Source of the DNA: Bryobacterales bacterium KBS 96
Lineage (GTDB): Bacteria > Acidobacteriota > Terriglobia > Bryobacterales > Bryobacteraceae
Assembly (NCBI GenBank): GCA_000381625.1
Contig: KB906767.1
Span: forward strand, 376,729-440,728
Length of the DNA: 64,000 nucleotides
Direction of reading: 5' to 3'
Of the stretch, positions 29,355 to 39,521 are shown one piece after another; within the stretch, counting starts at the first letter, position 1; every line of letters starts with the position of its first letter. A model generated the notes under the pieces. The model worked only from the letters and a program-made list of their open reading frames with translations. It made no database searches and was not told where the DNA came from. The translations under genes and the position numbers were made by a program.

Positions 29355-30185
29355 ATGGGCACGAACGGAAACACGCCACTTTCCGAACAGGCGACCGTGC
29401 ATCTCGCGGGCCCTGAGGATACGCGCCTGCGTTTTTCGGGTCCGCCAAAGAGTCTCACAGGGACTCTCCCGCTCGTCAACACCGGCCCTGAGAAGCAGAA
29501 GATTCGGAGCGTCGCCGTCAACTCTGACAAACTGCTGGGCGCTGCGCGGCTTCCGCTCCGCGAAATTCCTTTCTACGCGCGTCTGTATGGCGGCGAGCAG
29601 GTGAGCGTGCCCGCTACGCTCGTGCTCGACCCGCAGACTCCCCCCGGAAGTTACGATCTCGAATTTACCGTCGGCATGCGCACACTCGCCGCAACCGCGT
29701 ACGTCTCTGAAGTTGTCGATCTGCGGTTGGACCCGGTTCAGATCACAATACTCGTGGGCTCGGCGACTTCCTACACCAGAACGCTGGTTGTGGAAAATGC
29801 CGGTAATGTCGCCTTACCCACGGGCTCTCACTGTGAGGCGCCGATCTTCGACTCCTTCGATCTGGTCAGCACGTTTTTGGTCGGCCTGAATAAAGGAGAC
29901 CGGCAATCCGCCGAGTCGATGGCTAAGGCCTTCCTCAACGAGTGGGCCGATCTGAAGGCCGGCACACTTATCACTAAGCGCAAGGCAATGGTTCTGGCCC
30001 CCGGTCAAAAACTCGCGGTGGACATTGAGTTTCAGCTTCCGGGCGATTTGAAACCGTTGCGCCATTACCGCGCAAATCTGCAGCTTTACAACGCGACTCT
30101 GTCGGTGGATATTTATACAACGGCAAAAACGGGATCGGGCGCCAAGGCGCCAAAAGTGAATAGGGAGGCTTCCGTAAATGAGTAA
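29355..30185 (+). CDS. Unrecognised cytoplasmic protein with two beta-sandwich domains
   Basis: A 276-residue protein without signal peptide or membrane segment. Two Ig-like/COG1470-like sandwiches can be traced. The first is about residues 15-120 (LPLVNTGPEKQKIRSV, QVSVPATLVLDPQTPPGSYD). The second is about residues 125-262 (SYTRTLVVENAGNVALP, LAPGQKLAVDIEFQLP, HYRANLQLYNATLSVDI) and is interrupted by a helical insert at about 172-205. The NAGN and APGQ turn motifs are typical of such folds. It leads an operon: its end overlaps the next gene by 8 bp. No homologue function is known to me. The same sandwich pattern recurs in two neighbours and in the protein coupled to the polyketide synthase. 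Confidence 0.7.
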   Translation: MGTNGNTPLSEQATVHLAGPEDTRLRFSGPPKSLTGTLPLVNTGPEKQKIRSVAVNSDKLLGAARLPLREIPFYARLYGGEQVSVPATLVLDPQTPPGSYDLEFTVGMRTLAATAYVSEVVDLRLDPVQITILVGSATSYTRTLVVENAGNVALPTGSHCEAPIFDSFDLVSTFLVGLNKGDRQSAESMAKAFLNEWADLKAGTLITKRKAMVLAPGQKLAVDIEFQLPGDLKPLRHYRANLQLYNATLSVDIYTTAKTGSGAKAPKVNREASVNE

Positions 30186-30720
30186 AGGTGGCGGCGTTAA
30201 CATCCCCAGCGACTACACGATTAAGCTCGGCAGCGACGGCTCGACCATTCACGTCGATTCGGACCTCGACAATATCCATCTCAAAGAGATCGCTCCGGTC
30301 ACCATCAACTCGAACCTAGCGGTGACGCAGCCGATTGTCACGCAGTCGACGTCAAAGAGCGACTCCACGGCGAGCGTTGACCTTAAAGTGGAGCCGCTCA
30401 AGGTATCGAGCGATTCCACTTCGGAAATAGATGTCAAGCCGCTGGCTATCGATTCGTGCCAGACGCTAAAACTCGCGCCTCTTCCGCCCATCAAGATGGA
30501 GCAGCCGTATTCGCAGCATTTTGGCATCACCTTTATGGGAATGGAACTGTGGGGCTTCAACGTCTCCGGAAAATCCGAAACCTTTCTTCATAGCCCTACG
30601 AAACCTCGGCATTATAGTGTGCAGATACCGGAGCCCTGCGACTCGCGCGGTGAACCGGCGCATAAACCACAACCTGCTCCCGCGCAGCCCCGCAGCGGTT
30701 TGCGCGTGCGCGTGAAATAA
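30178..30720 (+). CDS. Unrecognised low-complexity Ser/Thr/Asp-rich protein
   Basis: A 180-residue protein with no signal peptide. Residues 10-90 repeat short alternating strands rich in Ser, Thr, Asp and Val (VTINSNLAVTQPIVTQS, STASVDLKVEPLKVSSDSTS), like a stacked beta or adhesive segment. A more ordered core follows (CQTLKLAPLPPIKMEQPYS, HFGITFMGMELWGFNVSGKS), then a Pro-rich basic tail. It overlaps the upstream gene by 8 bp (ATGAGTAA) and precedes the Cys/His-rich gene by 45 bp, so the three are co-transcribed. I do not recognise the family. Confidence 0.65.
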   Translation: MSKGGGVNIPSDYTIKLGSDGSTIHVDSDLDNIHLKEIAPVTINSNLAVTQPIVTQSTSKSDSTASVDLKVEPLKVSSDSTSEIDVKPLAIDSCQTLKLAPLPPIKMEQPYSQHFGITFMGMELWGFNVSGKSETFLHSPTKPRHYSVQIPEPCDSRGEPAHKPQPAPAQPRSGLRVRVK

Positions 30721-30765
30721 ACCGGGCGAGGTTTGGCGTGCCTCGCTTCAAAAGGAAAACTACAA

Positions 30766-31479
30766 ATGCAGACGGGACAACATCAACACTCGCACCACGG
30801 CTGTGGGGGCCAGAGCCGCGGACCGGAAGTATTTTACGGCTATTGCCACGAAACCAATCGCATGAGGATGATGGATTACACGGACTACATGAGCAACTTA
30901 CAGACCGGGTACTCCAATCTCTATAGCAACCCGGCTTCGAGCATGCAGCCGATCGTCAACGCTCTCTCCAGCATGATGCGCGGGCCGAGTTCCTCCAGTA
31001 CGCCGCATCATAAACATGGATGCGATTGCGGATGCCACGAGCACGGCTGCGGATGCTCGTGCTGTATTCGCTGCGCTGACGTCGTCGAGTACGCGCGGTG
31101 CGGTGAAGTGCGGCGAATCCCGATCACTTTCGATAACGATACGCGGCGCGAGCGGGCCGTTTCGCTGCAACTCGGGAATTTCGCCACCGAAAGCGGGCTG
31201 GATCCCGGGTGGCAGGCGTCGCTTTCCTCCACTCAGTTCACGCTGTCGCCCTGCGGCGAAACCACCGTTTTGCTGTCGGTGAACGTGGATTGCAGCAAAC
31301 TAGGCGCCCCGTCCAATCAGGGCAACGAGCGTCAGCCCACGACGGTCGATGCTTGCAAAGTGGTGTATGCGACGCTTCGCGCGGAAGGCTGCACCATCCG
31401 TCCGGTGGTAATCGCCGTCGCCGTTTTACCGGAGCATTGCGGAGCGCATCACGCCGGTTGCGGCTGCTGCTGCAACTAA
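30766..31479 (+). CDS. Unrecognised Cys/His-rich beta-sandwich protein
   Basis: A 237-residue protein without signal peptide. Residues 1-80 are rich in His, Gly, Tyr, Met and Ser. Residues 80-110 carry a dense cluster of Cys and His (HHKHGCDCGCHEHGCGCSCC), a likely zinc or iron-sulfur site. Residues 120-225 form a beta-sandwich (RRIPITFDNDTRRERAVSLQ, FTLSPCGETTVLLSVNVD, then an Ala-Val-Ile strand before the end). The C-terminus returns to Cys/His (EHCGAHHAGCGCCCN). AAAAGGAAAA lies upstream of ATG 30766. It is the last gene of the trio, ending 3 bp before the convergent polyketide synthase. Function unknown; metal binding is inferred from composition. Confidence 0.72.
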   Translation: MQTGQHQHSHHGCGGQSRGPEVFYGYCHETNRMRMMDYTDYMSNLQTGYSNLYSNPASSMQPIVNALSSMMRGPSSSSTPHHKHGCDCGCHEHGCGCSCCIRCADVVEYARCGEVRRIPITFDNDTRRERAVSLQLGNFATESGLDPGWQASLSSTQFTLSPCGETTVLLSVNVDCSKLGAPSNQGNERQPTTVDACKVVYATLRAEGCTIRPVVIAVAVLPEHCGAHHAGCGCCCN

Positions 31480-31482
31480 TCG

Positions 31483-34400
31483 CTATTTGACCCGCCGGGC
31501 GCGTACGATCCGGTACTCCCACGCGCCGGAGTGCATCTGCTCGTACACCGCGGAGCCTGGAACGGCAAGGAAGTTGTCGATCATCTCACTGCCGCCGCCG
31601 AATGCCTTCGTGCGATTTGCGGCCACGTCATCGCAAGACTGGAGCACGTTGGCCGTGATGTCCCGTTCACTCTCGCCGCGCAGCCCCAGCGACTCGAGCA
31701 GCATGCGCACCTCTGCCCATCGTTGAACCGGCAACAGATCGGTGTAGAGGAAGCTTCCGCCCTTGGCCAGCACACGGCGCACCTCGCTGAAGAAGGCCCT
31801 TAAATTGGGGTAGGTGTGCGACGATTCCATATTCGTTACCACTTCAAAGCTCTCTCCCTCGAACGGAAGGTGCTCCGCGTCTCCAACCTCGAATCGCGTC
31901 CCATGCCCGTGCGTGTTCCGGCAGAACGCGATGGCCTCAGGCGAAAGATCCACTCCGGTGGACGCCGCGCCGAAGATTTCAGCCAGCAGCGCCACCGTTC
32001 CACCCCGGCCGCACCCAACGTCCAGCACCTTGCGATCGTTCAGTTGCGTGCTGCCGATCAGTTCGAACGCGAGCCTGACCGAATTGCGATTGAACACCTC
32101 GGCCGGAACTTCGAACCGCGACTCGTCGCCTTCACCCAGACTGACGTATCCGTAATTGAGGAAGAAGGACACCGCGCCCATGCCCGACTGTTCGAGGCGC
32201 CGGGTAACGTCGTTATAGAACTCGCGATAGCTCGCCTTCGCCGCGACCTCCGGTGCGTTACCCTGCAATTCGGTCCCGGTGCCGGCGGTGGCAGCGAACA
32301 CGCGGACGGGTTCGCGAGACGCGCTTCCAGCCCGAGCCTGGTCCACCAGTACAGCAAGTTCGCCGATGGTGGGGGCTTGGAAGAGCTTCAGGACAGGCAG
32401 CTCGATCTGAAACCGGTCGCAAATCTCGGACGCAATTTGTGCGGCCAGCAATGAGTGTCCGCCCAGATCGAAGAACCGGTCGTGAATGCCCACAGCTTCC
32501 AGGCCAAGCTGCGATCCCCAAATTTCCGCCAGCAGCCGTTCCGTCGCAGTACGCGGCTCGACAAAAGCGGTAGTCAGATTCGGCCGCGGATGCCGATCCA
32601 TATCCGTTTTCTCCGCCGGCTTGGCCTCAGTATGCTGAACCCAGGCCTTCAGGCGCTCTGCCAGGTTGATCGCTACCAGCGCCCGCGAACCCTCCCAGCT
32701 TCCGATAAGCCGCAACAGGACTTCGTTGCCTTCGCTCGGCTTAATCGCGGAGGGCATGCTGGCGCTCTGCGCTTCAGCGGCGTTGTCCCAGGCATCCCAA
32801 TCGATGCTGAGCCAGTGCGGCCCCCGCTGGAGCGCAAGAGCATCGAGCATGGCGTTAGCGCCCGCATAGGCAGCCAGCCCCAGCCCTCCGAGCACGCTGG
32901 AGATCGAGGAGTGTAGAATCCAGCGGCGCGGCTCGCGGCCGCGAAGCGCATCCATCAGGTATAACAGTCCGCGCAGCTTTGGCGAGAATTGCGCTTCTAC
33001 GATCTTCCAATCCGTTTCCGCCGCCGAACCGAATGCCGCCGCATCGATGCGCGCCGCTCCGTGAACGACGACATCAATTTGGCCGAAGCGCGCAAATCCG
33101 GCATCCACCGCCGACTTGACCTGGGCGGCATCATTCATATCTGCGGGAACCACGATCAATTCATCACGGTCCATTCGCAGTTTCGCGAGGCGCTGCAGAA
33201 GCGCCTTTTGTTGCGGGGAAGTTTGCGGATCTTCACTCTTTGCCGCCCATTCGGCGGCCGCCGGCAGAGCTGTTCGACCAAGAAGAATCAGCTTCGCGCG
33301 CGCCCTCTTAAATAGAGCCTCTGCAAGATTGATTCCCATGTGACCAAGCCCGCCTGTGATCAGCACCACCGGGCTTGCGGGCAGATCGGTCGGCGGCTTC
33401 ACGGTCCTGATCGCCACCGGGTCAAACGTCTCCACGAACCGCTTTCCATTCCGGATTGCGATGGCTGCCCGCGGCGCGCCGGCCGCCAGTTCAGCCAGCA
33501 CCATATCGGCCACCGCGCCGCCGGCGTCTGCATCGATGTGCGCAACGCGCAGCCCCGGATGCTCCTGCGGTAATACGCGCGCAACGCCAGCGCTCAGCGC
33601 CCGCGGAGGATCCATCGCATCCGTATCCAGCACCCGTGTCGTCCCCGCGGCCAAAAGCAGCACCGGCAGTGGACGCACCGTTTGCTGCGCGCTGAGCGCG
33701 TGCGCGAGCCGCATCGGGGCCAGCAGTCCCATGGCGGCGGCCATATCGAGATCCGTACCGGCCGCTTCTCCTGAGGCCAGCGACGTTGCGCTCCAGCAAT
33801 CGATCACGCCGGACAATCGCCTTTCACTGTCGCAAACGGAATCCGCCAGTTCGTGGAAGTCGTGTTCCTGGTCGGGATTCAGAACCCACTCGCGCTCACT
33901 CAAGCGCGCGTACGTGTCGCCGGGCCGCGCCGTGACGACATCGCAACCAAGTTGCCGCAGGCTTTTGACGATAGCCGCGCCCGGGGATGTGTCGCGATCC
34001 AGGACTAGTATCCGGCGGCCCGCGAGAGTTGACGTTTTGCTCGCGCCGAGCGCCTCCTCGCGCCAGACCGCCCGGTAGAACCAATTGAACGGATCGCGCG
34101 CTTCCCCGCTGTTCGCCGAAGCGTTCGTTCCAACCCAGTAGGTGTGCCGCTCGAAAGGATAAGCCGGCAAGCTGACCCGCGAACGCTGTTCCGTGCTGTG
34201 GAAAACCTCCCAATCCACTTCCACGCCATTCGCCCACAACTGGCCGAGCGAGTTCAGCATTTCTTCCGTATCGCTACGCCGTGCGTCAGGGCCCGGCAAC
34301 GACTGCAAGCAGAGCGAAGACTTTCCCTTTGCAATCTCTCGCGAAAACGTCGAAAGCGTGTTTCCCGGACCGGCTTCGAGACAGATCGGATTTTTCAAAC

Positions 34401-36822
34401 CCAGATCGCCGGAACTCATTAGCGTCCGCATTCCATCCGCAAAGCGCACCGTTTGGCGCAACTGCCGGCTCCAATAGTCGGGCTGGGTGACGTCCTCCCC
34501 GGCCCAGTTTCCCGTAAGAGTCGAGACGAACGGCACGACCGGCTTTGACAGCTTAATTCGCGACAATGCCTCTTCGAACTTTTCGAGAACCGGATTCATC
34601 ATGCTCGAATGAAATGCATGCGACGTGTGCAGACGGCGCGCCGGTATGTGTTCCTTTTCAAGGTTCTTTTCGAGGCGTTCCATCGCCGTATCGGGCCCTG
34701 ACAATACGACGAAGCCCGGCGCGTTGACGGCCGCGAGAGAAATCTTTCCGGTCACAAAACGCTCGACGCTTTCCGGGGAACTCATCACGGCAAGCATCGA
34801 GCCTCGCGGCATCTTTGAGATCAACTGGCCTCGCCTCGCGATTACCGTTAGCGCGTCCTCGAGGCTCATTACCCCCGCGAGCGTGGCAGCCACGTATTCG
34901 CCCACACTGTGTCCGATCATGGCCGACGGCTTTACGCCCCACGACGACCATAACTCGGCGAGCGCGTATCCGACTGTAAACAGCGCGGGTTGGGCCCACT
35001 TCGTATCCTTCAGCGCCTCCGCCGCATTCTTACGATTGCGGGTCGCTGGAAACAGCAACTTCTTCAGATCCGCATTAAGCGTGGGTTTCAGGAGCCGCGC
35101 GCAACGATCGATGGCGCGCCGCACGACAGGCTCGCTTTTGTACAGTCCTGCCGCCATCCCCGGATACTGTGAACCCTGTCCCGGAAACAGGAACACCGCT
35201 GGCCGCTCGGCCGCCGCCGCAAACGAAGGAAGCGCGTCCGCGGCATCGAGAGCATCCGCCAGGCGTTCGCGCTCCTCACTGCCTACCGTCATTACGCGCC
35301 GGTATTTGAAAAAACGCCGGCCCAGGTGCAGTGTGAACGCAGCATCGGCGAGATCAATTTCCGGGTGCGTTCTTAAATGCGTCGCGAGCCGCTTCGAAGC
35401 TTCGTTGAGAGCCGCCTCGCTCCGCGCGCTGACCGTGAACACCTGCTGCGTGCGCCTGTTACTTTGCTCCGTCCTTTGCGGCGCTTCCTCGAGAATGACG
35501 TGAGCATTGGTTCCGCCGACGCCGAACGAACTGATGCCGGCGCGCCGCGGTGTTCCGTTGCGATCCCATCGCCGCAAGCGCGTCGTGACGTAAAAAGGAC
35601 TCGACGCCAAGTCAATGGCTGGGTTCGGAGCTGTGTAATGCACCGTCGGCGGGATCGCCTGCTTCTCGAGCGCAAGCACCGTCTTGATGAGCCCGGTGAC
35701 GCCCGCCGCGCACGAAAGATGTCCGAAGTTCGATTTTGCCGATCCAATCCCGCAGAAGCCGCGCCGGGTTGTGGACTCCCGGAAAACTTCCGTCAGCGCT
35801 GACAATTCAATTGGATCGCCGAGAATGGTGCCGGTGCCGTGCGCTTCCACATACCCGATTGACTCAGCATCCACGCCCGCGCTCCGGTGAGCGGCCCGAA
35901 TAGCTCCGGCTTGGCCGCGCGTGCTCGGCGCCGTGTACCCGACTTTGTCGCTGCCGTCGTTATTGATTCCAACCCCAAGAATCACAGCCCGGATGTTATC
36001 GCCAGTCTCAACCGCGTCGGCCAGGCGCTTCAGCACTACCAGCCCCACTCCGCTGCCGACGATTGTGCCTTGCGCCTGCGCATCGAAAGGCCGGCAATGC
36101 CCATCGGGCGACAGGATCGATCCGGCTGTGTAATAGTAGCCGCCCCGCTGCGGCACCTTTACCGTCACGCCGCCCGCCAGGGCCATATCGCAGCGGCCAT
36201 GCTGCAAGCTCTCACACGCCAGCGCCACCGCTACCAACGAGGTGGAGCAAGTGGTCTGCACGGCGACGCTCGGCCCCCGCAGATTCAATCGGTACGATAC
36301 CTGAGTGCAGAGATGGTCTTTGTCGTTCGTCACCATCAACTGCATGCCATCGATGTACTTTAACGATTCGAGATTCTGATAAAGGTGGCCAAGGTAACTA
36401 CTCAGTTCGCACCCTCCGAATACGCCGATTGCGCCCTCATAGCGGCCTGGGTCATAGCCTGCATCCTCCAACGCCTGCCACGCGGTCTCGAGAAATAAGC
36501 GGTGCTGCGGATCTGTGAGCGCCGCATCGCGCGCGGAAAAGCCGAAGAAATGGGCGTCGAACTGGTCGATTCCATCGAGTACAGGCGACGCGTTTACGTA
36601 TCCGGGTAGTTTCGAAATGGCTTCGGGAATTCCGGCTGCACGCATCTCCTCCTGAGTCAGGATCGCGATGGATTCCACGCCATGCGCGACGTTCGTCCAG
36701 AGCTGATCCACATCATTGGCGCCGGGAAATCGCCCCGACATTCCGATAATGGCGATCGGCTCCATGCGCGCCTCCGCGGGCTTGAGCGCCTCCGCCACCC
36801 GAGTGGTCCTGCGCGGTGTCAT
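31483..36822 (-). CDS. Single-module type I polyketide synthase, KS-AT-KR-ACP-methyltransferase
   Basis: A 1,779-residue multienzyme. Ketosynthase (about 20-450) has Cys192 in QTTCSTSL, His328 in EAHGTGT and His368 in KSNFGH. Acyltransferase (about 540-850) has Ser639 in GHSVGE and SHAFH, the malonyl-CoA signature. Ketoreductase (about 930-1345) has TGGLGHMG and the catalytic Tyr near 1319 in AAYAGANA. The carrier domain has the phosphopantetheine Ser near 1457 in DLGGHSLLA. A SAM methyltransferase (about 1535-1779, VLDVGCGRGG) ends the protein. There is no dehydratase, enoylreductase or thioesterase, so release is unexplained. ATG 36822 is chosen; TTG 36828 would overlap the upstream stop. 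It is coupled to the gene at 36825-37802. Confidence 0.93.
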   Translation of the reverse strand: MTPRRTTRVAEALKPAEARMEPIAIIGMSGRFPGANDVDQLWTNVAHGVESIAILTQEEMRAAGIPEAISKLPGYVNASPVLDGIDQFDAHFFGFSARDAALTDPQHRLFLETAWQALEDAGYDPGRYEGAIGVFGGCELSSYLGHLYQNLESLKYIDGMQLMVTNDKDHLCTQVSYRLNLRGPSVAVQTTCSTSLVAVALACESLQHGRCDMALAGGVTVKVPQRGGYYYTAGSILSPDGHCRPFDAQAQGTIVGSGVGLVVLKRLADAVETGDNIRAVILGVGINNDGSDKVGYTAPSTRGQAGAIRAAHRSAGVDAESIGYVEAHGTGTILGDPIELSALTEVFRESTTRRGFCGIGSAKSNFGHLSCAAGVTGLIKTVLALEKQAIPPTVHYTAPNPAIDLASSPFYVTTRLRRWDRNGTPRRAGISSFGVGGTNAHVILEEAPQRTEQSNRRTQQVFTVSARSEAALNEASKRLATHLRTHPEIDLADAAFTLHLGRRFFKYRRVMTVGSEERERLADALDAADALPSFAAAAERPAVFLFPGQGSQYPGMAAGLYKSEPVVRRAIDRCARLLKPTLNADLKKLLFPATRNRKNAAEALKDTKWAQPALFTVGYALAELWSSWGVKPSAMIGHSVGEYVAATLAGVMSLEDALTVIARRGQLISKMPRGSMLAVMSSPESVERFVTGKISLAAVNAPGFVVLSGPDTAMERLEKNLEKEHIPARRLHTSHAFHSSMMNPVLEKFEEALSRIKLSKPVVPFVSTLTGNWAGEDVTQPDYWSRQLRQTVRFADGMRTLMSSGDLGLKNPICLEAGPGNTLSTFSREIAKGKSSLCLQSLPGPDARRSDTEEMLNSLGQLWANGVEVDWEVFHSTEQRSRVSLPAYPFERHTYWVGTNASANSGEARDPFNWFYRAVWREEALGASKTSTLAGRRILVLDRDTSPGAAIVKSLRQLGCDVVTARPGDTYARLSEREWVLNPDQEHDFHELADSVCDSERRLSGVIDCWSATSLASGEAAGTDLDMAAAMGLLAPMRLAHALSAQQTVRPLPVLLLAAGTTRVLDTDAMDPPRALSAGVARVLPQEHPGLRVAHIDADAGGAVADMVLAELAAGAPRAAIAIRNGKRFVETFDPVAIRTVKPPTDLPASPVVLITGGLGHMGINLAEALFKRARAKLILLGRTALPAAAEWAAKSEDPQTSPQQKALLQRLAKLRMDRDELIVVPADMNDAAQVKSAVDAGFARFGQIDVVVHGAARIDAAAFGSAAETDWKIVEAQFSPKLRGLLYLMDALRGREPRRWILHSSISSVLGGLGLAAYAGANAMLDALALQRGPHWLSIDWDAWDNAAEAQSASMPSAIKPSEGNEVLLRLIGSWEGSRALVAINLAERLKAWVQHTEAKPAEKTDMDRHPRPNLTTAFVEPRTATERLLAEIWGSQLGLEAVGIHDRFFDLGGHSLLAAQIASEICDRFQIELPVLKLFQAPTIGELAVLVDQARAGSASREPVRVFAATAGTGTELQGNAPEVAAKASYREFYNDVTRRLEQSGMGAVSFFLNYGYVSLGEGDESRFEVPAEVFNRNSVRLAFELIGSTQLNDRKVLDVGCGRGGTVALLAEIFGAASTGVDLSPEAIAFCRNTHGHGTRFEVGDAEHLPFEGESFEVVTNMESSHTYPNLRAFFSEVRRVLAKGGSFLYTDLLPVQRWAEVRMLLESLGLRGESERDITANVLQSCDDVAANRTKAFGGGSEMIDNFLAVPGSAVYEQMHSGAWEYRIVRARRVK

Positions 36823-36824
36823 GC

Positions 36825-37802
36825 TCAATCTTGACCGCTGGAACGTTTTGACGCGACGGGCGTGGCAAGAATTCTCAGCTCCACTTCAAGCGGCACGTCC
36901 GATCCGCCTGTGAGGTACAGCGCCCCGGTATACAGGGCGTCCGAATCATATTGTTCCGGATCGAGATGTAGCGAGATGGTGAGCGTTCCTTCCTCATCCG
37001 GCCCGAGTTCGAGCGTCTCGGGCACAAACGCGATAGTGGGAACGAGACTTGGCCCCGCGCCATCTTCCCTGCGCACGTCGACGATTCGATGCCCGATCCG
37101 GGTTTGTTGTCCGGTCGTGTTCGTAATAGACAACGATGCGGCGGCGGTTGTGCCCGCTGGTCCTGCGAGCGTGAGCGCGACGGTTGCATCCCTGTCGTCA
37201 GATTCGGCCCTAGCCAGCAGTCCGTGAAAATACGTCTCCTCGTATGCCGAGCGGATATCGTTCAACCCGTTCAGGAGATCGAAGTAGAGCTGCGTCGTCA
37301 ACTGCATGTATCCCGGCAGTTGTTGCGCCATCTGCTCCGCGGTTTGCTGCTGAACTTCGCTTGGCGTCGCCTCCCCAGCGGCAACCCGATCAAGCTGTGC
37401 CCGGTAGCTCTTGACGGCGCGCGCATTTAATCGTCCCGCATACTCGGCAAGCTGCTCGTACCAGCGAGCCGGGTTCGAAGCGTCAAATTGTGGCGGGGCG
37501 CTCTCACGTTCCGTTGCGGCGCCAGCCTCGGACGGCTGCTGCGAAAAGCTGGAGCCGAGTCGCACCAGGCCGCTTAGAAACCGCGACCCGACCTCCGCGA
37601 AGCGATTCGCGAAGTCAGGTCCGTGAGCAACCGCGAAGGCTGGAAAATGATCCTGGAAAATGGTCGGCGGCAACTTGCCTTGGGACACGCGTTCCAGCGC
37701 CAACTGGTAAAGGTTCAGAGTTCGTGCCGAGAGCGCGGCCGATCGCGCCAAATATTGGGAGTACGACGTCGACCAGTCGGTCGAGTTCATTTCCGGTGTC
37801 AT
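36825..37802 (-). CDS. Unrecognised helical-repeat/beta-sandwich protein coupled to the PKS (phasin-like?)
   Basis: A 325-residue cytoplasmic protein. Its helical part holds two related ~60-residue units: about 24-85 (SARTLNLYQLALERVSQGKL) and 126-186 (NARAVKSYRAQLDRVAAGEA). They share [SN]AR, L[ED]RV and a Gly-Glu/Lys turn, then a second amphipathic helix (RFLSGLVRLGSSF; YFDLLNGLNDI). The C-terminal ~105 residues form a beta-sandwich (SLSITNTTGQQTRI, LELGPDEEGTLTISLHLD). A perfect GGAGGTGA site precedes ATG 37802, and its stop nearly touches the PKS start. Amphipathic helices of this kind recall phasins that coat hydrophobic granules; that is only a resemblance. Confidence 0.75.
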   Translation of the reverse strand: MTPEMNSTDWSTSYSQYLARSAALSARTLNLYQLALERVSQGKLPPTIFQDHFPAFAVAHGPDFANRFAEVGSRFLSGLVRLGSSFSQQPSEAGAATERESAPPQFDASNPARWYEQLAEYAGRLNARAVKSYRAQLDRVAAGEATPSEVQQQTAEQMAQQLPGYMQLTTQLYFDLLNGLNDIRSAYEETYFHGLLARAESDDRDATVALTLAGPAGTTAAASLSITNTTGQQTRIGHRIVDVRREDGAGPSLVPTIAFVPETLELGPDEEGTLTISLHLDPEQYDSDALYTGALYLTGGSDVPLEVELRILATPVASKRSSGQD

Positions 37803-38131: not shown

Positions 38132-38251
38132 ATGAACGAAGACGAGCCAATCACGGTCGCCGAACAGAATCAGAAAACCCGTTTGAGCACACGTTTTCTT
38201 CCTGGTTGGCTTGAGCGACGACGCGATCGGACACAATCATGCCGTGTATGA
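38132..38251 (+). CDS. 39-codon micro-ORF coupled to the ECF sigma gene
   Basis: The frame from ATG 38132 to TGA 38249-38251 encodes MNEDEPITVAEQ, a central NQKTRLSTRFLPGWLERRRD and a short tail: acidic at the front and strongly basic behind. Its stop overlaps an in-frame ATG of the sigma factor (ATGA at 38248-38251), the same coupling used between sigma and anti-sigma. No clear ribosome-binding site precedes it and an inverted repeat abuts its start. It may be a leader peptide, a small regulator or a chance frame. Confidence 0.4.
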   Translation: MNEDEPITVAEQNQKTRLSTRFLPGWLERRRDRTQSCRV

Positions 38252-38787
38252 ACGCCAGCGTCGGAGAAGACGCCCCGCCCGGCGATACCGCTCCGGACCG
38301 CGTTGTGCTCGACCAATATCATCGTGAGCAGGCGCCGCTACGGCGCTATCTCGCGTTCCTCGGCATCAACATCGATACCGCCGAAGAGATCGTGCAGGAG
38401 GCATTTCTGCGGCTCCATAGCCATCTGAGAGGCGGCGGAGACCGGACGAACCTGCGTGCCTGGCTGTACCGGGTAGCCCACAATCTGGCGCGTAACGAAC
38501 AGAGTTCCGCCCATAATCGCCTATGTGGACCCATGGACGATGAAGCGCTGTTGCGCGGCGCCTCTATCCGGAACGGCTATACGCCCGAATCGCTTTTTTT
38601 AAACCGCGAGCGCGATAAAAAATTGAAAGCTGCCATTGGCGCCTTGAGCGCCTCGCAACGCGAGTGCCTGGTCCTGCGTGCGCAAGGAATGAAATATCGC
38701 GAGATAGCCGCCATTCTCGATTTATCCATTTCAGCGGTAGGCGAGAATGTGCAGCGTGGTCTCGAGAAACTGAAGGGATTGCTATGA
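38248..38787 (+). CDS. ECF-type RNA polymerase sigma factor
   Basis: A sigma-70 family factor of ~179 residues. Region 2 is about residues 20-90 (RYLAFLGINIDTAEEIVQEA, LRAWLYRVAHNLARNE) and region 4 about 125-178 (LSASQRECLVLRAQGMKYRE, AAILDLSISAVGENVQRG). The start may be ATG 38239 or 38248; the latter overlaps the micro-ORF stop. The stop overlaps the zinc-finger anti-sigma start by 4 bp, so the pair is stoichiometrically coupled. Its targets are not determined; it faces away from the PKS operon. Confidence 0.92.
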   Translation: MNASVGEDAPPGDTAPDRVVLDQYHREQAPLRRYLAFLGINIDTAEEIVQEAFLRLHSHLRGGGDRTNLRAWLYRVAHNLARNEQSSAHNRLCGPMDDEALLRGASIRNGYTPESLFLNRERDKKLKAAIGALSASQRECLVLRAQGMKYREIAAILDLSISAVGENVQRGLEKLKGLL

Positions 38788-39521
38788 GACAAGAGCCGCA
38801 TCTCAACGACGGCTTGCTGGTGAAGGCGCTCGACGGAGAGTTGACCGGCGCCGAAAAGATCGATGTCGAAATACATCTGGCCGATTGCCAGGAGTGCCTC
38901 GACAGGCTGGACCATTGGGCGGATTTTTCGATCGAGATCGCGCGCGTTGTGGACGCCGTGCCGACGGCGGCCGCCCGTCACTCGCATGAACGATTACTCA
39001 CCGCCATGTCGGATGCGCGCGAACCTGACCGGGCGTCGGAAAAGCAAACGCCGCGGTGGAGAACGCCGGCCTGGGTGGCCGCATTGGCCGCCTGCCTGGC
39101 GATCGTGACGTTATTCTCGATTCGCATTGCGCGGCATTCGCCAAAACAGAACGGGGCTTCTTTCGCGATCCGGACCGATAGCCGCCAGCGTTCGTCGCCC
39201 GCCGCTATCGCTCACGTCCGGCCGGATCAGCCGGTGAAGCGTCGTACGGTTCTTGCCCGGAATAACGCGCCGGCGAAATCTAATTCGGCGGCAGGACCGG
39301 CGGTCGATGGGTTCTGGCCCTTGCCGTATTCGAACCCCGCCCTCCCGGTAGATTCCGCCGACGTACTGCGCGTTCGCGTTCGTCTCTCCGCGCTCACCGA
39401 AGCCGGCGTGGTGACCGCCGCTCCAGCCGCCGACGACCCCTGGGTGCAGGCGGATGTTCTGCTCGGAGCCGATGGAGAACCTCGCGGTATTCGGCTGTTA
39501 CAAGCATCTGCAACAGAATAA
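38784..39521 (+). CDS. Zinc-finger anti-sigma factor, membrane anchored
   Basis: A 245-residue protein with the anti-sigma zinc motif His31-x3-Cys35-x2-Cys38 (HLADCQECLDRL), one transmembrane helix (about 95-113, AWVAALAACLAIVTLF) and an extracytoplasmic, Ala/Pro-rich domain. The last part has a TonB-C-like pattern (WVQADVLLGADGEPRGIRLL). It should hold the coupled sigma factor inactive until an envelope signal arrives. It overlaps sigma by 4 bp. Confidence 0.87.
   Translation: MRQEPHLNDGLLVKALDGELTGAEKIDVEIHLADCQECLDRLDHWADFSIEIARVVDAVPTAAARHSHERLLTAMSDAREPDRASEKQTPRWRTPAWVAALAACLAIVTLFSIRIARHSPKQNGASFAIRTDSRQRSSPAAIAHVRPDQPVKRRTVLARNNAPAKSNSAAGPAVDGFWPLPYSNPALPVDSADVLRVRVRLSALTEAGVVTAAPAADDPWVQADVLLGADGEPRGIRLLQASATE

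Follow-up and report, generated by a model that had tools for sequence, protein, structure and literature searches.

Polyketide synthases (PKSs) are usually regarded as freestanding assembly lines. O-methyltransferase (O-MT) domains with targets on an acyl carrier protein (ACP) have been described: according to PMC10127204, the domains of StiD and StiE act on beta-hydroxy groups and that of LynB2 on a beta-oxo group of carrier-bound polyketides. The locus reported here, in a 64,000-nucleotide stretch of Bryobacterales bacterium KBS 96 (assembly GCA_000381625.1, contig KB906767.1, positions 376,729 to 440,728; hereafter the window), encodes a single-module PKS with a methyltransferase (MT) at its end, accompanied by four structural-looking proteins, which we term helpers. 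These five genes are kept together in two genera belonging to different acidobacterial orders. Tentatively, and with somewhat less than even confidence, we interpret the block as a PKS that methylates its bound chain, likely at a hydroxyl, together with a structural helper module that serves to organize the PKS or to package its product. This module, as yet unclassified, constitutes the more interesting half of the block; the domain architecture of the PKS is not in itself unique. Being the sole PKS found in its genome and linked to four structural-looking proteins of no known family, the enzyme would offer a direct test of how bacterial polyketide and lipid synthesis is physically organized.

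A single-module PKS within a conserved block

The PKS gene (31483..36828, minus strand) encodes 1781 aa, in which Pfam reproduced the order of ketosynthase (KS), acyltransferase (AT), ketoreductase (KR), ACP and MT proposed by a first-pass annotation of the window, and likewise its lack of dehydratase, enoylreductase and thioesterase (TE) domains, none of which was present among the 25 Pfam families listed for the protein. The KS (aa 22-450, 35479..36765; Pfam matches at 22-272 and 281-398) carries its active-site Cys within TTCSTSL (192-198), and the AT (aa 545-835, 34324..35196; Pfam 545-806) contains GHSVGEY (639-645) and HAFH (737-740). The KR catalytic domain (aa 1155-1348, 32785..33366) follows a PF21394 region (aa 939-1102) and includes a Rossmann motif and an S-Y-N stretch, the ACP (aa 1432-1492, 32353..32535) has its Ser within DLGGHSLL, both of these domains being bounded as in their Pfam matches, and the C-terminal S-adenosylmethionine (SAM) MT (aa 1532-1774, 31507..32235; PF08241 at 1602-1694, with profile matches below cut-off) contains the SAM motif VLDVGCGRGG. 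All catalytic motifs sought were seen, including two KS His motifs; the roles ascribed to them are the customary ones, and the AT is presumably of the malonyl type according to the GHSVGEY/HAFH rule. With KS, AT and ACP on one chain and their motifs present, the protein can be classed as a type I cis-AT PKS. It does not qualify as a multi-module assembly line, as it consists of one module without a TE and is the sole PF16197 match in the 6.69-Mb host genome. The first-pass annotation had noted no phosphopantetheinyl transferase (PPTase) in the window; the host genome has two, as has each of the other three acidobacterial PKS carriers introduced below. In all, the protein appears to be a lone, intact cis-AT module with a terminal MT. 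Across its KR-ACP-MT part (32001-34000), the GC content is 0.634, versus 0.545-0.607 in the remaining 2-kb steps.

Directly upstream on the same strand lies the gene for a 325-aa partner (36825..37802). The first-pass annotation had placed both open reading frames (ORFs) correctly and had described their frames as nearly touching, which they are: with a TTG start for the PKS the two overlap (TTGA), and with the in-frame ATG two codons later they are 2 nt apart. The corresponding junction is a 4-nt overlap in locus L013 and a gap of 12 nt in L009 and 9 nt in L010. The same annotation had considered the 325-aa protein to be the only operon partner, which holds for that strand, but three convergent genes (29355-31479, plus strand) also belong to the conserved block. 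They encode helpers of 276 aa (29355..30185), 180 aa (30178..30720) and 248 aa (30733..31479; 237 aa if translated from an ATG at 30766), and the stop codon of the 248-aa gene is 3 bp from that of the PKS.

The 325-aa gene has five distinct carriers: the window genome, G001 of the same genus, G115 and G273, which represent one genus from another order of the same class, and G473, a Verrucomicrobiota metagenome-assembled genome (MAG). Among 81 genomes, comprising the host's own and its relatives, two encode the protein, besides one chance match; it was also detected in 3 of 396 genomes of the phylum, besides three weak matches taken as chance. A scan of genome contigs with two short peptide patterns, which reaches only fairly close relatives, returned three relatives (G001, G273 and the Verrucomicrobiota MAG) among 19 matching stretches. 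A match in G037 (E 8.4e-5) was set aside as chance, as by our reading it falls inside an ATPase-like ORF, and the three weak ones of the phylum set, in G111, G223 and G395 (E 0.003-0.01), were treated likewise. The PKS is located directly 3' of the 325-aa gene in all five carriers, and a 325-aa gene lacking a PKS was not encountered, consistent with the coupling noted in the first-pass annotation, with the MT end readable in four of the five (the contig of G473 stops within the AT, and the G001 PKS spans two contigs, which were kept unjoined). The three remaining genes retain their order and their orientation to the PKS in the window, G115, G273 and, across two contigs, G001; their products in G115 and G273 are 56-66% identical to those of the window. 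Within the genus of G115, two of the 62 genomes match the 276-aa profile. Some carriers hold further PKSs elsewhere, with a total of seven PF16197 matches in G115 and two each in G273 and G473.

The flanks of the block differ between the two genera. Beyond the 325-aa gene, the window and G001 encode an extracytoplasmic function (ECF) sigma factor and a zf-HC2 protein, versus DUF2264 in G115 and G273. In the window, the ECF-type sigma factor gene and the overlapping zf-HC2 anti-sigma-like gene occupy 38239-39521 (plus strand) and are divergent from the PKS operon, and they also occur in G001 (L011). Beyond the convergent genes lie a DHDPS-family gene in the window, a sulfatase gene in G115 and G273, and, in G001, a DinB-like gene together with a gene for a BD-FAE-type alpha/beta-hydrolase. 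The latter (L031, 4975-6159, plus strand) was not seen beside these genes in the window, G115 or G273; it could encode a trans-acting release enzyme or be unrelated. The first-pass annotation had anticipated neither a TE nor a standard modular PKS beside the block, and indeed no TE or second PKS was found among those flanking ORFs that were scanned, a part of the total, at the window, G001, G115 and G273.

The four other KSs of the block share 83-98% identity with the window KS; the next KS in the set shares 61%. In a tree of 18 of the 19 KS stretches (L062 was omitted, as its KS length and identity equal those of L013 and it was taken as the same locus), the five from the block cluster together on a long branch (support 100/100). 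All five genes are under purifying selection in the comparison of the window with G001, with dN/dS values of 0.10, 0.085, 0.13 and 0.11 for the 325-, 276-, 180- and 248-aa genes and, over the final 750 codons of the PKS, 0.07. The patchy spread of the block looks like the result of horizontal transfer, and the five genes probably move between genomes as a unit.

Relatives and likely target of the methyltransferase

The best NCBIfam match of the MT (METHYLTRANSFERASE) is the Rv2952-type family NF045823, with 142 bits versus a cut-off of 300, and the Mtf2 fatty-acid O-MT family NF045825 follows with 126.8 bits versus a cut-off of 400; within the 285-aa query, these matches span residues 35-278 and 41-241, respectively. 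At a threshold of E 1e-30, such an MT was found in 3 of 297 phylum genomes, all of which are block carriers. The closest MT domain found outside of the block, at 45% identity, belongs to another PKS that the Verrucomicrobiota MAG encodes elsewhere, a modular relative of the window PKS (contig G473:C312, 11,978 bases; L047, 3869-9283, minus strand), which also has the order KS-AT-KR-ACP-MT and is encoded between two C-A-PCP nonribosomal peptide synthetase (NRPS) genes. Brasilonema pBOCT1 encodes a discrete MT, likewise 45% identical, which has a TubC docking domain and is located between a KS-AT-KR-ACP PKS and an NRPS. Four MT matches were obtained from plasmids, including one from Rhizobium (34%, unannotated).

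The first-pass annotation had left two roles open for a terminal MT, namely methyl-ester release and methylation of a bound chain. Because the relatives in G473 and Brasilonema precede an NRPS, the MT should act upon the carrier-bound chain rather than in release, provided that these lines are colinear, and this second role is the one supported by the sequence relatives. For the alternative, the MT would methylate the released acid or a thioester-derived carboxylate to yield a beta-hydroxy methyl ester. Its location as the last domain of a PKS that has no TE, and after which no module follows within the block, would suit such a role. However, the nearest relatives outside of the block are positioned upstream of NRPS modules, where an ester would end the chain, and the similarity to the BioC malonyl-ACP O-methyltransferase is weak (TIGR02072, 48.9 bits versus a cut-off of 184.95). 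Methyl-ester release was dropped as the leading idea, as the relatives sit mid-line, and we now consider it very unlikely.

As for the position that is methylated, the domain content and the profile matches favor the hydroxyl presumably generated by the KR. Two observations count against this assignment: the MT reached none of the family cut-offs, and its homologues with 36-38% identity are MT-TE or TE-annotated proteins from clusters resembling that of yersiniabactin, in which we take the corresponding MT to be a C-methyltransferase. It is these homologues that speak for methylation of a carbon of the bound chain. Set against them, the closer relatives and the profile matches favor O-MTs, and the C-methyltransferase domains of PKSs usually precede the KR; a Serratia PKS, for example, has PF08242 between its KS and KR. 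C-methylation is unlikely in our estimation, although among the alternatives considered here it is the most credible.

The following sequence of events can be envisaged. An acyl starter would be loaded onto the KS in trans, the chain would be extended with malonyl units in one or more rounds, and the KR would reduce it to a beta-hydroxyacyl-ACP. The C-terminal MT would then methylate the chain while it is held on the ACP, most likely at the new hydroxyl, to give a beta-methoxyacyl chain, which would leave via transfer to another acceptor or through a trans-acting hydrolase and not as a methyl ester. The four helpers, presumably non-enzymatic and probably cytoplasmic, would form a scaffold or coat through their amphipathic helices and Ig-like domains and would thereby organize the PKS or package its product. 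Of all the steps, this last one is the weakest.

The helper proteins

The first-pass annotation had described the 325-aa protein as helical repeats combined with a beta-sandwich, and the AlphaFold model (four sequences; mean pLDDT 75.7, pTM 0.49) bears this out. It comprises two helical hairpins (aa 7-85 and 111-201, formed by helices 7-40, 48-85, 111-141 and 147-201) and a PapD/ASH/MSP-like beta-sandwich (about aa 208-316, with strands from 209 to 314). Fold searches with the C-terminus returned PapD-like, ASH and MSP domains, with 7som_D as the best match (Z 10.7, rmsd 1.9, 91 aligned residues); many rows tied within 1 of the top Z, and the matches span only the sandwich (207-317). The C-terminus is accordingly predicted to be a PapD-like beta-sandwich, a matter of fold alone that shows no function. 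The four helices exceed shuffled sequences in amphipathicity, to differing extents (z values of 1.3, 3.6, 2.5 and 1.8). No Pfam, NCBIfam or PHROG family matched the protein at E 0.1, one match was obtained among PDB sequences (JUBO4, E 0.0023, covering approximately 50 residues of the sandwich), and no obvious signal peptide was apparent by eye.

The 276-aa helper is predicted to be rich in strands by a low-confidence model (pLDDT 50), which is too poor for a fold search. A conserved stretch, PYSQHFGITFMGMELWGF, characterizes the 180-aa helper, whereas the 248-aa helper is rich in Cys and His: its 237-aa form (30766-31479) contains 20 Cys and 13 His, and the orthologues in G115 and G273 contain 19 Cys each. 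These residues lie in clusters that suggest metal binding or cross-linking. None of the three matched a Pfam (E 0.1) or NCBIfam family or, significantly, a PHROG; the best PHROG match of the 180-aa family was E 3.9e-5 for its copy in G303 (to a family of unknown function) and 0.015 for the window copy, both of which may stem from repeats. The 276-aa profile found no relative among viral contigs (108 pattern matches), and an Rfam scan of the window gave no match.

Homologues of two helpers also occur in genomes without a PF16197 PKS. The 180- and 276-aa profiles match G303 and G391, 2 of the 19 genomes of their genus, with identities of 44% for the 276-like and 35% for the 180-like proteins; weak matches in G367, G423 and G141 (E 6e-4 to 0.007) were taken as chance. 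There, the two genes are followed by those for a Cys-rich 251-aa protein and a 236-aa protein, of which the N-termini look like amphipathic helices (z 4.6 and 6.8, assuming an ideal helix) and the C-termini yield only sub-threshold Pfam matches (ASH, E 0.25; Fn3-like, 0.028; PapD_N, 0.035). This version of the helper genes occupies L020 3549-13058 and L021 3658-13160, adjoined by genes for DUF362, an ABC1/UbiB-like kinase and an epimerase/3beta-HSD-like protein, with one below-cut-off match to Polyketide_cyc2 among the neighbors. With 90-99% identity between their helper proteins, G303 and G391 count as one observation of this context. A PF16197 PKS was found in neither of them, and they have one PPTase match apiece, compared with two in each acidobacterial PKS carrier. 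Since the 276/180 homologues are located beside unrelated proteins of similar helix-plus-sandwich plan in genomes where no PF16197 PKS was found, the pair resembles a structural module in its own right, which might be a scaffold or the coat of a granule, and this helper core seems to be more than an accessory of the PKS. The families are absent from the copies of Pfam and NCBIfam that were searched, and the PKS-free version would permit work on the helpers in isolation from the enzyme.

Several points weigh against the proposed interpretation of the block. The helpers showed no match to a phasin or scaffold family of Pfam, their amphipathic helices would suit coiled coils equally as well as surface binding, and their cytoplasmic location was judged by eye. 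Moreover, the notion that G303 and G391 encode the same module rests upon the 276/180 pair and the shared layout: profile comparisons did not convincingly relate the 236-aa protein to the 325-aa family (E 0.061, probability 0.9%) or the 251-aa protein to the 248-aa one (E 0.018, probability 2.6%). The four complete loci also come from only two genera and hence represent two independent lineages, and the three convergent genes were not found in G473 (a 3.7-Mb MAG whose completeness is unknown and whose binning may be wrong).

Two alternative views of the helpers deserve consideration. In the first, they would act as chaperones or stabilizers of the PKS and not as a scaffold or coat. The resemblance of the 325-aa C-terminal domain to PapD-type chaperone domains (Z about 10) and the tight coupling of its frame to that of the PKS are both consistent with such a role, but the fold is common to many non-chaperones (ASH, MSP and HYDIN domains) and the 276/180 pair has homologues where no PF16197 PKS was found, and we consider it a rather improbable explanation. 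In the second, the neighborhood would be fortuitous, with the PKS and 325-aa genes forming one unit and the convergent genes another. The convergent orientation, the 276/180 pair in the PKS-free genomes and the Verrucomicrobiota MAG, where the pair of PKS and 325-aa genes is present and the convergent genes were not found, all lend themselves to this view. Conversely, five genes in identical order in two orders with differing flanks speak against it, and we think it improbable to a slightly greater degree than the first. There is also an extension of the scaffold or coat interpretation that we consider unlikely, yet no more so than a chaperone role: the helpers, with their beta-sandwiches, amphipathic helices and one Cys/His-rich member, could form the shell or granule coat of a new protein-coated cytoplasmic body that can be fitted with different enzymes. 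Here it would carry the methylating PKS, whose product would be synthesized on it or kept inside it, and in the PKS-free acidobacteria it would carry something else.

Comparison with known systems

The first-pass annotation had regarded the PKS architecture combined with this partner as unfamiliar. The domain order recurs in the PKS of G473:C312, while the pairing with the 325-aa protein is borne out in all five carriers. The G473:C312 enzyme has NRPS genes on both sides, unlike the window PKS, and in Brasilonema pBOCT1 an identical set of steps is divided between a PKS and a docked, discrete MT, again flanked by NRPS genes in contrast to the window. The NRPS-flanked PKS of Leptolyngbya pLBX is KS-AT-KR-ACP without an MT. 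In its KS-AT portion, the window PKS is 49-53% identical to 12 listed plasmid PKSs; five of these 12 stretches were inspected, among which those from Nostoc and Chroococcidiopsis show no NRPS gene, the Nostoc stretch being unannotated. What sets the window PKS apart from such NRPS/PKS lines is its pairing with the helpers, of which the 276-, 180- and 325-aa proteins gave no match by tblastn in the plasmid collection. Searches for the KS-AT-KR-ACP-MT architecture and its variants found no publication, and those combining phasins or lipid droplets with PKSs gave a conference-abstract collection and, among the titles listed, none on such a locus; these results do not demonstrate that the block is unpublished.

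The best curated matches of the MT, Rv2952 (phthiotriol dimycocerosate O-methyltransferase) and Mtf2, fall far below their cut-offs. Both are stand-alone proteins, unlike the MT of the window, which is joined to the C-terminal side of an ACP. In LynB2, the MT precedes the ACP (PMC10127204), as opposed to ACP-MT in the window PKS. The 325-aa C-terminus shares its fold with PapD-like, ASH and MSP domains, and the protein differs from these in the attached helical hairpins and in lacking a Pfam match. A phasin label was rejected for the helpers and is retained solely as an analogy: no Pfam family matched the 325-, 276-, 180- and 248-aa proteins at E 0.1, and no phasin model matched the four helpers of G303 at E 1. 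The likeness of the helpers to phasins and granule coats would lie in the arrangement that they appear to have in common, in which a protein with amphipathic helices is encoded beside a lipid- or polyketide-type synthase.

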